Positions 317 through 27,336 of a stretch of 31,483 nucleotides of DNA are shown here, piece after piece; within the stretch, counting starts at the first letter, position 1, and the number at the start of each line of letters is the position of its first letter. Below the pieces are notes generated by a model, which ran no database searches, was not told the origin of the DNA, and saw only the letters and a program-made list of their open reading frames with translations. This DNA comes from a virus: positions 1 through 31,483 of IMG/VR virus record IMGVR_UViG_3300035698_007795; one strand, 5' to 3'. A program made the translations under genes and the position numbers.

Positions 317-665
317 ATGTGGTGGATGTTTTATTAATTTTGTCTGTACATTAACTTACTTACTTGATGTGCTTTTTCATGGAAAGAATTTCTAACAACA
401 TCTTTTAATGCTTTTCTTTGAACCATATCTTGTGTACTTGCATCTACAATAGTTAATATCTTTCCTAATTGGTAACTTAGTATATTTTGTACAAATCTTT
501 CATCCCCTAAAATTGAATTAGATGGATTTCTAACTGTATTATCATTACCGTCTATTGTCTTTAGTCCAAAATTATAATTATTTTCAGTTTCTCCTGAATA
601 ATATTCTGTATAATTTTTAATTGTATTTTGTTTTAACATAACTTTACTTAACTTAACCACCACAT
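317..665. repeat. Inverted 9-mer pair bracketing the gene at 334-639
   Basis: ATGTGGTGG at 317-325 and its exact complement CCACCACAT at 657-665 flank the gene. Each copy lies beside a TAAGTTAAGT direct repeat. In the leftward transcript the first copy falls at or near the predicted 5' end and the other between the stop codon and the terminator, so the two ends of the message could pair. Confidence 0.5.
334..639 (-). CDS. Small hypothetical phage protein, independently transcribed
   Basis: The 101-residue protein begins MLKQNTIKNYTEYYSG. An upstream in-frame ATG at 690 would add 17 residues, but it lies upstream of the extended -10 promoter at 670-678 and close to the terminator at 689-713, so 639 is the better start. 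The C-terminal half (FVQNILSYQLGKILTIVDA, then QRKALKDVV) looks helical and well ordered. No membrane segment or catalytic motif is visible and the family is not recognised. The gene is a unit of its own: promoter, 5' leader, gene, 3' leader and terminator, lying beyond the lysis cluster and the structured RNA region. Confidence 0.7.
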   Translation of the reverse strand: MLKQNTIKNYTEYYSGETENNYNFGLKTIDGNDNTVRNPSNSILGDERFVQNILSYQLGKILTIVDASTQDMVQRKALKDVVRNSFHEKAHQVSKLMYRQN

Positions 666-669
666 ATTT

Positions 670-678
670 ATTATAACA
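670..678 (-). promoter_or_regulatory. Extended -10 promoter for the gene at 334-639
   Basis: Read leftward the sequence is TGTTATAAT, a perfect TGn extension joined to a consensus -10 hexamer. No good -35 is visible, which is normal for extended -10 promoters. Transcription would begin near 663, about 25 bases before the chosen start codon. Confidence 0.55.
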
Positions 679-688
679 TAAAGAAAGC

Positions 689-713
689 AAAAAGGACTCC
701 TTGCGAAGCCCTT
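689..713 (-). terminator. Intrinsic terminator ending the structured RNA region
   Basis: Read leftward, AAGGGCT pairs with AGTCCTT (one G-U) around TCGCAAGG and runs into TTT. No gene ends here, so the terminator implies a non-coding transcript arriving from the right. Confidence 0.55.
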
Positions 714-945
714 AAGCGATAGTGTTAATTTTATCAATACTTTTAACATTCAGGTTTGACATTCCCTATATGCAGTTAAAAGCACAGAAGTCTCGTTGTA
801 AACATATCGCCAAAAGGCATACGAGCTATTTCAGTTCAAGTTGCTTCTGACAGAGCTTGTTCCTAGTGAGCATTGTCAATCTCACAATTATAAACCCCTT
901 TTCTTTACGATAGGATCAAGAAAAGGATACTGTTATTGTATCATG
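689..945 (-). ncRNA. Candidate structured non-coding RNA, family unknown
   Basis: The gap between the lysin gene and the gene at 334-639 has no credible reading frame but many complementary pairs. Listed by + coordinates they are: 926-930/938-942 (GATAC/GTATC), 897-905/918-926 (nine perfect pairs), 866-870/881-885 (five pairs), 844-849/785-790 (CAGAAG/CTTCTG, enclosing), 803-811/816-823 (eight pairs with one bulge and a TTTT loop), and 740-747/775-782 (CTTTTAAC/GTTAAAAG). The region ends in an intrinsic terminator at 689-713. Hallmarks of tmRNA, RNase P RNA and SRP RNA were looked for and not found. No strong promoter is obvious, so it may be read from its own weak promoter or by read-through of the lysin terminator. 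The fold was found by eye and is not energy-tested. Confidence 0.45.
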
Positions 946-946
946 T

Positions 947-1000
947 TTATTTTTCACTTTCAAGTTCTTTTTGTAATTGTTTTTCGCTTTTTTTATTCAT
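947..1000 (-). CDS. Possible 17-residue charged micro-peptide
   Basis: A leftward ATG at 1000 opens a 17-codon frame (MNKKSEKQLQKELESEK) ending in TAA. Its leader, AATTAAACAAAAAAG then AAAA, resembles the start leaders used across this genome. The peptide is rich in K and E and would be helical. It sits between the lysin terminator and the structured RNA region and could be a leader peptide for it. The frame is so short that chance is a serious alternative. Confidence 0.2.
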   Translation of the reverse strand: MNKKSEKQLQKELESEK

Positions 1001-1054
1001 TTTTTCTTTTTTGTTTAATTTCTCCATATATATATAATATCACTTTTAAATTAT

Positions 1055-1079
1055 TAAAAAAGCACTTATACAGTGCTTT
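1055..1079 (-). terminator. Intrinsic terminator of the leftward operon
   Basis: Read leftward, AAAGCAC and GTGCTTT form a perfect 7-bp stem around TGTATAA, followed by TTTT. The stem overlaps the last codons and stop of the lysin gene, so it ends the long late operon. Confidence 0.75.
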
Positions 1080-14837: not shown

Positions 14838-15560
14838 CTACGGTAATCTTAAGCTTATTGTAGCGTATTCTGTATCAGTTGCTGCAATCATTGCTGTTCC
14901 AACTACTGATAGAATTTCTGCTGCACCGTCTGCTGTAATTTCTACTGCTCCATTTACATTGTCAGAAGCAACTACATCAGTACCTACTGTAACAGTTTGG
15001 TCTGCTAATACTGAAGCTGGGCCACGAACTTGTAGCCAACCATAATAATCAGCCGTCATAGCAAATGTTGCTACACCTACTGGTGAAGAAGTTGCAGTTG
15101 TCGGATTAATTATTACAGCGTCAAGAGGGTTCTTGATAACATCTATAGTTGTATCTGTAGTTAATGCCACTTGAATTTCATCATCCAAGTTTAATGTAAA
15201 TACTGCTGCTGTTGCTGCTGCATGTCCTGAAATTCTATAAATGTGTCCTTCTCCTGCATCATCTGCAATAGAAACAAATCCTCCAGCATATTGATTAGCT
15301 GTCACTGTAACAGTTCCTGTTGTTACGATTGAAGTAGCTCCTGCTGCTGTTGCAGCGATAGCTAAATTGTGGTCGCTTGTATCTTCTGCTGAAGATTGTT
15401 GTAAATTACCAGCTACAAGTGCTGTACCTCCAGCTCTACAATATCTGTATGCTCTACCATCGTTAGATTGAACTAAAGCACCTATAACATGTTGAGCTGT
15501 AGATTTTTCTTCAAAAATCCCTTGAGCTACTACTTGTACTGGTCCTGTTAAATTTTTCAT
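14838..15560 (-). CDS. Capsid decoration-like virion protein
   Basis: The 240-residue protein is rich in A, T, V and G and almost free of long helices, with repeated short strands (VTVTANQYAGGFVSIADDAG, then EGHIYRISGHAAATA). The start, MKNLTGPVQVVAQGIFEEKS, leads into QHVIGALVQSNDGRAYRYC, as often seen in small head proteins encoded just after the capsid gene. It has no signal peptide. It probably binds the outside of the shell as cement, but the fold and site are inferred. Confidence 0.55.
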   Translation of the reverse strand: MKNLTGPVQVVAQGIFEEKSTAQHVIGALVQSNDGRAYRYCRAGGTALVAGNLQQSSAEDTSDHNLAIAATAAGATSIVTTGTVTVTANQYAGGFVSIADDAGEGHIYRISGHAAATAAVFTLNLDDEIQVALTTDTTIDVIKNPLDAVIINPTTATSSPVGVATFAMTADYYGWLQVRGPASVLADQTVTVGTDVVASDNVNGAVEITADGAAEILSVVGTAMIAATDTEYATISLRLP

Positions 15561-15589: not shown

Positions 15590-16558
15590 CTATGCACCAT
15601 CTGCATCTACTGCTGTTCCATCTCCACCCCAACAAGCAGCGACTCCTACTTCATCACAAGCTGCTGGAATTTCAATTTTTCCTGTAGATTTAGCAAGAAC
15701 AGCTGTTGAACCACCATTGAAAGTACAATTAGAAATTATACCAGTTGCTCCATCTATTACTGTAATAAATTTAGTAGCTTGGTCAAAATTACAATGATCT
15801 ACATTGAAATCTTTTGAGTTTTCCATAGACACATGAAGTGCTACTGAAGCTCCATTATTTGATTTGAAGTCACAGTATTTTACTGTCATACTGTTGTTTG
15901 AAAGTGTATTACAATCAAAGTTGATTGCAAGTGCATCAGTTCCTAAACCAAATGTACAGTTAAGTATTGTAGTTGCATAACCACCATATACACTAATAGC
16001 ACCATAAGTAGCTGAAGCATTTTTGAAGTAACAATTTTCAATTAATGCACCAACACTACCTGCTAATGTAGCATAACCTGATACTCCTTGTAATCTAATA
16101 CCATAAGTACCACTGTTTCTTGTACAATTAAATTGTAATCCTTTAATTTGAACACCTGGAGCATTAATAGTCAATAGTGCGACTGCTGTAGCATTCTTAA
16201 TTTTAGGACCACTAAATGGTTGTAGTATCCCTGTACCACTCATTCCGATTAATTTCAATCCCCATTTATCATAAGGAATAGTTAAATCTTCTTCATATGT
16301 TCCTGGTTCAGAAGCATCTGCATCAGGGTCTATTGCCCTAATGTAAATAGTATCTCTTGAACTAGAAGCAGTAATAGCTGCTTGAATTGTTGCAAATGCA
16401 GAATCAGGAGTTAATCCATTTTCAGAATCACTACCATTATCACCATCTACATATCTAACTGTAGTGAAATCATCTCCACCACTTAATACTTCAGAATCTA
16501 GAATCTTTGCCCCATATTTTAGAGCTGGATTATAATCTCTTAGTAATTTTGTATTCAT
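15590..16558 (-). CDS. Beta-helix (pectin-lyase-fold) protein encoded next to the capsid gene
   Basis: Residues 30-80 (FTTVRYVDGDNGSDSENG, then DSAFATIQAAITASSSRDTI) give the usual entry into a right-handed beta-helix. Residues of about 110-300 show its regular coils (for example GALIENCYFKNASATYGAIS, TTILNCTFGLG, GIISNCTFNGGS). This fold is typical of tailspikes. Here it is encoded directly after the major capsid protein and before a decoration-like protein, far from the tail genes, so a head fibre or head-surface spike is plausible. Catalytic residues cannot be assigned. The family is otherwise unnamed. Confidence 0.65.
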   Translation of the reverse strand: MNTKLLRDYNPALKYGAKILDSEVLSGGDDFTTVRYVDGDNGSDSENGLTPDSAFATIQAAITASSSRDTIYIRAIDPDADASEPGTYEEDLTIPYDKWGLKLIGMSGTGILQPFSGPKIKNATAVALLTINAPGVQIKGLQFNCTRNSGTYGIRLQGVSGYATLAGSVGALIENCYFKNASATYGAISVYGGYATTILNCTFGLGTDALAINFDCNTLSNNSMTVKYCDFKSNNGASVALHVSMENSKDFNVDHCNFDQATKFITVIDGATGIISNCTFNGGSTAVLAKSTGKIEIPAACDEVGVAACWGGDGTAVDADGA

Positions 16559-23100: not shown

Positions 23101-23358
23101 TTATTTCTCCATTCCTTCAGGTTCTTCTATCTTAACAGATATTCTCTTCTCACATGAGAAGCCTAATTGTCTAACTAATGTTCTTATTGCATTTGCATTT
23201 GCTCCTTGCTTTCCTATAAGTCTTCCCATATCTTCTTTATTCACTTTTACTGTCAATAATACTCCCATTTCATCTATTGATGATTTGATGATTACATCGT
23301 CGGGTTTTGTTACTATTGGTTGTATAATATTTAATAAGTATTTTTCTTCATTTTCCAT
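23101..23358 (-). CDS. KhpA-like KH-domain RNA-binding protein
   Basis: The 85 residues are essentially one KH domain. VLLTVKVNKEDMGRLIGKQG carries the GxxG loop at 49-52 (GKQG), followed by ANANAIRTLVRQLG and a final strand (RISVKIEE). This closely follows bacterial KhpA (COG1837, YlqC type), where IGKQGRTAxAIRTL is typical. KhpA proteins bind RNA, usually as dimers. A KhpA-type gene within a phage packaging operon, between GroEL and the small terminase, is unusual. It may act on phage or host RNA. The RNA target is unknown. Confidence 0.8.
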   Translation of the reverse strand: MENEEKYLLNIIQPIVTKPDDVIIKSSIDEMGVLLTVKVNKEDMGRLIGKQGANANAIRTLVRQLGFSCEKRISVKIEEPEGMEK

Positions 23359-25945: not shown

Positions 25946-26137
25946 GAGGTTTATACCCTTATATATTACAACACAAAAAGACGACGACTGCAATGACAGC
26001 ATTATTTTGAATCGCAGTCTCCCAGTAGCGAGGGTGGGGGGTTGTACCCATATGTATATATATTATATATCTTTTTAAATAAATACTGTCATTGCTGTCG
26101 TACCCCCCCTAACCCCTTGAAAAATAAAGGCTAACCG

Positions 26138-26255
26138 ACGACACCATTTTTTTAACGAAAGTTACCCTTTTTTTTTCAATAACCCCACAGACCTTTACAC
26201 ACAACACTTCACAGCAATTACACCCACGACACCATTTTTTTAATAATGCTGTCGT
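26138..26255. repeat. Iteron pair with palindromic second unit
   Basis: ACGACACCATTTTTTTAA occurs exactly at 26138-26155 and 26226-26243. The second copy is followed at 26245-26255 by AATGCTGTCGT, the near-exact inverse of its first 11 bases, so that unit is an interrupted palindrome. Confidence 0.75.
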
Positions 26256-26262
26256 TTAACAC

Positions 26263-26271
26263 TTATCCACA
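26263..26271 (+). promoter_or_regulatory. DnaA box
   Basis: TTATCCACA is an exact match to the bacterial DnaA-binding consensus. It lies eight bases past the last iteron and just before the rightward promoter, so host DnaA may take part in initiation or control. Confidence 0.55.
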
Positions 26272-26278
26272 GGTAATA

Positions 26279-26307
26279 TTGATAATATTAGAATATTTTG
26301 ATAGAAT
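26279..26307 (+). promoter_or_regulatory. Rightward operon promoter
   Basis: TTGATA, 17 bases, TAGAAT: ideal spacing and good hexamers. Transcription would start near 26314, giving a leader of about 114 bases before the primase ATG, with an intrinsic terminator inside it. Confidence 0.65.
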
Positions 26308-26349
26308 AAATATTGAAAAGTGATTAAATTGTCCTGTAAAAAATAGACA

Positions 26350-26402
26350 ACTAATACCAGTAAGTTCACTTTTCAGGACAAGCTTACTGGTATTAGTTTT
26401 TT
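26350..26402 (+). terminator. Leader terminator (attenuator) before the primase gene
   Basis: ACTAATACCAGTAAG (26350-26364) pairs perfectly over 15 bases with CTTACTGGTATTAGT (26383-26397), followed by a T-run. It stands between promoter and start codon, so the operon is read only when it is bypassed. Its 18-base loop holds TCACTTTTCA (26366-26375) and CAGGACAA (26374-26381), exact complements of leader segments 26314-26323 and 26329-26336. The two pairings overlap and cannot both form fully. Confidence 0.75.
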
Positions 26403-26427
26403 ATTAACAATTAAATAAAGAAAAAAT

Positions 26428-27336
26428 ATGATTAAATATTTGAAAAATAAAGGTATTACCATAAAGGTATTAAAGAAATTTAATATATCTTTTAAAGATG
26501 ATACAGCATTTTTCCCAGTGTATGATAAAAACAATAATAAGTTATACACAAAATATAGAAGAATTGGAGAGCCAATAAAAAATCCCAAAGACTCACACAC
26601 ATCTTTATATGGAATTCAATTTTTAAAGGAAAATAAAAAAGTAATTTTAACAGAGGGGGAAACTGACACATTATCATGTCATACAATTAATTTACCAGCT
26701 ATCACATCAACCACAGGGGTTATGTCAAACTATACACCAGATATGGTAGAAAGTTTAAATGGTAAAGATATATATATATGCTTTGATAATGATATTGCAG
26801 GACATAAAGGAATGGCTAAGATATACAAAACATTCCCAGAAGCTAAGTTTGTATTTCTCACGGATGAGGAAACAGGAATTAATGGAGATCTTAATGATTT
26901 TATTCTTAATAATGATATTGAAATTGTGAGGAAGAAATTTAATGAAGCAACTAAAATTGTAGATGGTTTTAAATCACACCACGATATTAAATTTACTTTA
27001 AAAGAAAGTAATGCTTTAACTCCTTATAAAAGAGCATATTCATTAGAACAAGATGACGAATTAAGAAGATTAGAGGCTAAGGCAGTACCTTTTAGGTCAT
27101 TAATGGACTTTAATAGTAGTAATATGGCTATATGTCCATTTCATAACGATACAAACGCCTCACTGTCTTTAAAAGAAGACAAGAATTTCGTTAAATGTTT
27201 TGTATGTGATGAAACACATGATACGATAGGTTTCATTATGAAAAGAGATAATCTAATGTTTTATGAGGCAATAGCTTATCTTGTAGGTGCAAAATATCAA
27301 GAGGTTAGGGGGGTTAATTTATGTAATCATGACTAA
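26428..27336 (+). CDS. DNA primase with N-terminal Toprim and C-terminal zinc finger
   Basis: In this 302-residue protein the Toprim domain comes first: VILTEGETDTL near 72-82 with the conserved Glu76, then IYICFDNDIAG near 115-125 with the DxD pair, then LNDFIL. A CHC2-type zinc ribbon lies at the C-terminus: CPFHNDTNASLS at 236-247 and CFVC at 257-260, followed by the usual TIGFIMKRDNLMFYEAIAYL helix. In DnaG primases the zinc finger comes first and Toprim later, so the order is reversed, and the full DnaG catalytic core is not evident. It overlaps the helicase by eight bases. Priming with the helicase is the likely role. Confidence 0.75.
   Translation: MIKYLKNKGITIKVLKKFNISFKDDTAFFPVYDKNNNKLYTKYRRIGEPIKNPKDSHTSLYGIQFLKENKKVILTEGETDTLSCHTINLPAITSTTGVMSNYTPDMVESLNGKDIYICFDNDIAGHKGMAKIYKTFPEAKFVFLTDEETGINGDLNDFILNNDIEIVRKKFNEATKIVDGFKSHHDIKFTLKESNALTPYKRAYSLEQDDELRRLEAKAVPFRSLMDFNSSNMAICPFHNDTNASLSLKEDKNFVKCFVCDETHDTIGFIMKRDNLMFYEAIAYLVGAKYQEVRGVNLCNHD

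Follow-up and report, generated by a model that had tools for sequence, protein, structure and literature searches.

To our knowledge, phage sRNAs with genes of their own are still few. PAK_P3 features two late phage RNAs, sRNA1 and sRNA2, which are approximately 100 nt long and are expressed from their own small intergenic genes (PMC4933390). In lambdoid phages, PreS and other sRNAs originate from intergenic loci (PMC12197685). The locus described here is part of the IMG/VR virus record IMGVR_UViG_3300035698_007795, the whole of which (31,483 bases) is the window of this analysis. It resembles PAK_P3 sRNA1/sRNA2 and lambda PreS in being a short, intergenic phage locus with no credible ORF, the transcript here being a predicted one. 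Unlike these RNAs, which have ∼90–100 nt, it would give rise to an RNA of ∼240 nt, and no sequence relation to them is known. Our best guess, a tentative one at a probability of roughly 0.45, is a phage sRNA gene of the accessory kind with transcription of its own, whose product may be regulatory by base pairing.

The late operon of this phage runs leftward and consists of the terminase, a gene at the portal position, the major head protein, and genes at tail positions. The early operon runs rightward and starts at 26428. The same phage also encodes GroEL, GroES, and a KH-domain protein. We know of no transcriptome for this phage group, which is uncultivated, encodes GroEL/GroES, and starts its genes without Shine–Dalgarno sequences. 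The elements of the locus, together with the KH-domain protein, are as follows:

334–639, minus strand: downstream gene of 101 aa without known family; no relative found
670–678, minus strand: extended −10 TGTTATAAT of gene 334–639, perfect, read from the sequence
688–928, minus strand: predicted leftward non-coding RNA of ∼240 nt, placed by the promoter and terminator positions
692–713, minus strand: intrinsic terminator of the candidate RNA, with a 9-bp stem, GCAA loop, and TTTTT (T-run 693–689)
716–812, minus strand: long-range helix GGCGATAtGTT/AACacTATCGCT, present in MFE and centroid, closing a predicted multi-helix domain
740–782, minus strand: hairpin with 8 perfect pairs, CTTTTAAC/GTTAAAAG, from helix count and fold
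897–926, minus strand: 5′ hairpin with 9 perfect pairs, CCTTTTCTT/AAGAAAAGG, and a 12-nt loop, from helix count and fold
935–963, minus strand: promoter of the candidate RNA, with −35 TTGAAA, a 17-base spacer, and the extended −10 TGaTACAAT (10/12 plus TG in the consensus scan)
1053–1077, minus strand: late-operon terminator, AGCACT-GTATA-AGTGCT then TTTTTT, read by eye
23101–23358, minus strand: KhpA-like KH-domain RNA-binding protein (NCBIfam PRK00468, E 5e-16, below the curated cut-off)

Transcription would proceed leftward from the extended promoter at 963–935 to the intrinsic terminator at 713–692, and the unit would be an accessory one, with the late-operon end on one side and gene 334–639 on the other. 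The preliminary description had already noted this terminator and a position between the late operon and an independently promoted gene, and both are borne out: the hairpin at 1077–1053 terminates the late operon, and the extended −10 at 678–670 sits just beyond the terminator of the candidate RNA. The hairpin at 1077–1053 overlaps the stop codon of gene 1066–2238, and the signal scan also contains a plus-strand reading of the same hairpin. Because the late operon and gene 334–639 have their own terminator and extended −10, respectively, the RNA unit appears to stand alone. An sRNA gene is expected to have a promoter and a terminator of its own flanking non-coding sequence, and both are found here, as consensus signals only. 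Strict criteria yield 8 promoters and 2 terminators in the whole window, and, with a pair defined as lying 60–400 bases apart, a single strong promoter–terminator pair, which is at this locus; 200 dinucleotide shuffles average 0.02 pairs, an optimistic expectation since the pair criteria were set with the locus already known. The G+C content is 0.38 at the locus versus 0.23–0.28 in the flanks. These signals are best read as a separate non-coding transcript, and they probably mark a non-coding transcription unit in its own right.

The chief rival, which we regard as unlikely, is an ordinary spacer, in which a terminator stops leftward read-through and a promoter match occurs by chance, with any transcript being a functionless by-product. 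It is favored by the number of promoter-like matches in the window, which is lower than in shuffles, by the lack of detectable conservation, and by the folding results given below. Against it speak the rarity of the promoter–terminator pair, the raised G+C content, and the late operon being already terminated upstream.

The region 689–945 had been described as carrying no credible gene, and this is confirmed: apart from the frame of the flanking gene, ORFs on the RNA strand reach at most 33 aa, and the longest frame inside the transcript has 19 codons with a GTG start (885–826). It had also been described as containing at least six stems, including perfect 8- and 9-bp pairs and a long-range pair. 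The named stems are indeed present, with arms at 926–918/905–897 for the 9-bp stem and at 782–775/747–740 for the 8-bp stem, and with the long-range 6-bp core at 810–805/721–716 belonging to an 11-bp MFE helix. An excess over chance is not found: 8 perfect helices of at least 6 bp are observed versus 7.9 in shuffles, and 2 helices of at least 8 bp versus 0.65, with 13% of the shuffles reaching 2. The folding energy of the predicted transcript is −60.5 kcal/mol, with z −2.40 (3/200 shuffles are as good), while the opposite strand of the locus has a fold z of −0.6. In a 240-nt folding scan of both strands (316 windows), the locus takes rank 37 by z, and folding energy is, hence, weak evidence in this genome. 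Both the chance-level stems and this rank fit an ordinary spacer. Of the structured non-coding RNA proposed in the preliminary description, the transcription unit stands by promoter, terminator, G+C content, and context, whereas an elaborate conserved fold is unproven.

Searches for relatives of the RNA were carried out in several collections. In Rfam, no family reaches the gathering score anywhere in the window (including RNase P, SRP, 6S, ROOL, and GOLLD), and ARAGORN finds no tRNA or tmRNA; the earlier remark that tmRNA, RNase P, and SRP are absent thus agrees with both programs. A tRNA-like reading of the candidate RNA was rejected, as ARAGORN with introns gives nothing at the locus at the normal threshold; calls that overlap it appear only at very low thresholds and are such as chance would produce. 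Phage records contain only matches of 29–36 bases in baseplate genes of giant phages and no homologue, and plasmid records contain one 29-base match only. Exact RNA seeds have 60, 8, and 0 matches in IMG/VR, none of which extends as a homologue, and a 20-base seed has 0 matches in GTDB genomes. The nhmmer matches in L095, L120, and L140 (10 bits) were discarded; they overlap an open frame of another phage at its end. The collections searched gave no homologue of the candidate RNA, and its helices are, hence, predicted ones.

The terminase relatives in IMG/VR share 36–72% identity, except for one fragment that is 100% identical (L002, identical over 6,093 bases). BLASTN against 29 terminase relatives and 16 tail-gene relatives gives nothing above chance; one virus may be in both sets (∼45 records), and several of the records are fragments or stop before the comparable place, so that absence there says little. 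Relatives of the flanking genes 1066–2238 and 334–639 were searched for and none was detected, and prophage relatives were looked for in GTDB genomes, again with none. Gene 334–639 has 21-nt direct repeats (90% alike) at both ends, at 294–314 and 637–657, as though recombination had brought it in as a cassette. In a survey of 20 related records, units of promoter, non-coding stretch, and terminator are few, and sequence comparison with the same 20 records gives nothing like the window RNA.

The relative G005 features an RNA candidate of its own (L051 1256–1461, minus strand) between the SSB gene and a replication gene. Its ends are tRNA-Leu-like (ATGGCGGAATCGTAAAGACGC … GTGAGGGTGGAAGTCC), with a long insert in place of the anticodon arm, and a promoter TTGCAG-17-TATAAT was read by eye upstream. 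Homology of the window RNA with this candidate (L051 1230–1470, minus strand) was proposed by eye, on the basis of a common ATCGTAAAGA and ATGnCAAnCC at similar spacing, and was rejected by shuffle tests. In strict local alignment, 224/500 shuffles equal the score; in a lenient alignment, which is one among ten such tests, 7/300 shuffles score as high. A tRNA gene at L074 19634–19744 (plus strand) is interrupted by a 40-base insert (ARAGORN with introns). Within this insert lies AACAGCAATTAAA, a motif that recurs nearby, beyond the tRNA.

The preferred reading as an sRNA gene draws on the promoter–terminator pair, the neighbors with signals of their own, the G+C content, the strand-specific fold z, and the missing ORF, and, in addition, on the known phage sRNAs with own intergenic genes and the KhpA-like protein of this phage. 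It is weakened by the missing homologue, the chance-level stem count, the ordinary folding energy, and the lack of an outstanding target. Unpaired stretches between the helices would, as a guess, pair with phage or host mRNA, and this pairing might change translation or decay of the target mRNA. Among the translation-start regions of the phage, none pairs better with the candidate RNA than with shuffled RNAs. A single 14-nt perfect complement connects RNA positions 851–838 with 14960–14973 in the coding part of gene 14838–15560; its length is reached by 114/2000 shuffled RNAs and is not significant.

KhpA/B binds sRNAs in S. pneumoniae (PMC7196914). The KhpA-like protein of this phage occurs in only 8/50,697 phage records and is absent from the 20 related records searched. 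It might perhaps assist the pairing, and, from this one genome, a partnership with the candidate RNA is possible but speculative. It is very improbable that the RNA founds an undescribed phage RNA class acting with a phage-encoded KhpA-like chaperone, in which case one phage would supply an sRNA as well as the protein that binds it. If the locus is transcribed, it offers a defined RNA whose partner and target could be looked for; the locus alone leaves the knowledge of phage RNAs unchanged.

A second rival, to which we give little credence, is a cis-acting leader, that is, an attenuator or riboswitch whose terminator would control gene 334–639 with alternative helices as the switch. The start of this gene lies ∼50 bases past the terminator of the candidate RNA, and competing helices can be drawn (GCGATA/TATCGC versus TATGCC/GGCgATA, and also GAAGC/GCTTC). 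The sole Rfam match at the locus up to E 10 is also a leader, Phe_leader, but with E 7.9 and 15 bits versus a cut-off of 55, it is far under threshold and meaningless. Moreover, gene 334–639 has its extended −10 at 678–670 past the terminator and could, hence, be transcribed without read-through.

The leader of the early operon (26314–26405, plus strand) is a separate case. It is preceded by an extended promoter (26279–26307) and contains an 18-bp terminator-like hairpin followed by TTTTTT. In truncated transcripts, the rival upstream pairings TTGTCCTG/CAGGACAA and GAAAAGTGA/TTCACTTTTC fold first, and the leader looks like a transcription attenuator as judged by its sequence. Since it folds with z −5.2, the preliminary ranking of the RNA locus as the strongest undescribed candidate in the window is not upheld. 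Next to this leader, a replication origin is probable at 25984–26271, where a perfect DnaA box (TTATCCACA) stands at 26263, accompanied by 22-nt direct repeats with a distance of 88 bases and by a 28-nt inverted repeat. An origin of replication at the RNA locus was rejected, the DnaA box and long repeats being at 25984–26271 instead.

A structural or counter-defence RNA, i.e., a protein scaffold, a decoy, or an RNA-only assembly like ROOL/GOLLD, has a slightly smaller chance than the cis-acting leader. Such RNAs are carried by phages (PMC12286853), and the relative L148 has a much more structured candidate of ∼390 nt in the same place, just past its late operon (15660–16030, plus strand). This candidate features z −4.8, a long closing helix, several hairpins, and an upstream promoter TTGACT-17-TATGTT. 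However, the L148 RNA shows no likeness to the window RNA, homology between the two being rejected as not significant in alignment versus shuffles; in addition, the window RNA has no Rfam match, and 240 nt is far below the length of ROOL or GOLLD. An mRNA for a very short peptide of 19 codons (885–826) is the least probable reading, as AAAAGGGG stands 9 bases before its GTG but carries little weight because all 35 listed gene starts are ATG with an A/T-rich leader and no Shine–Dalgarno sequence—which hints at a host group initiating without them—and no homologue of the RNA was found.

Compared with ROOL and GOLLD, the candidate would likewise be a phage-encoded non-coding RNA with many helices, which are predicted here (PMC12286853); unlike these, it is much shorter, matches no Rfam family, and is not part of a tRNA island. 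The manA RNA (RF01745) is weakly resembled by the L148 candidate, at 19 bits and, hence, below the cut-off of 55.2, and has no match to the window RNA. The locus does not amount to a demonstrated new RNA class. Judged by its signals, it is most fittingly classed as a candidate “phage sRNA gene,” an established functional class, without assignment to a family, and its product is probably one more accessory phage RNA.
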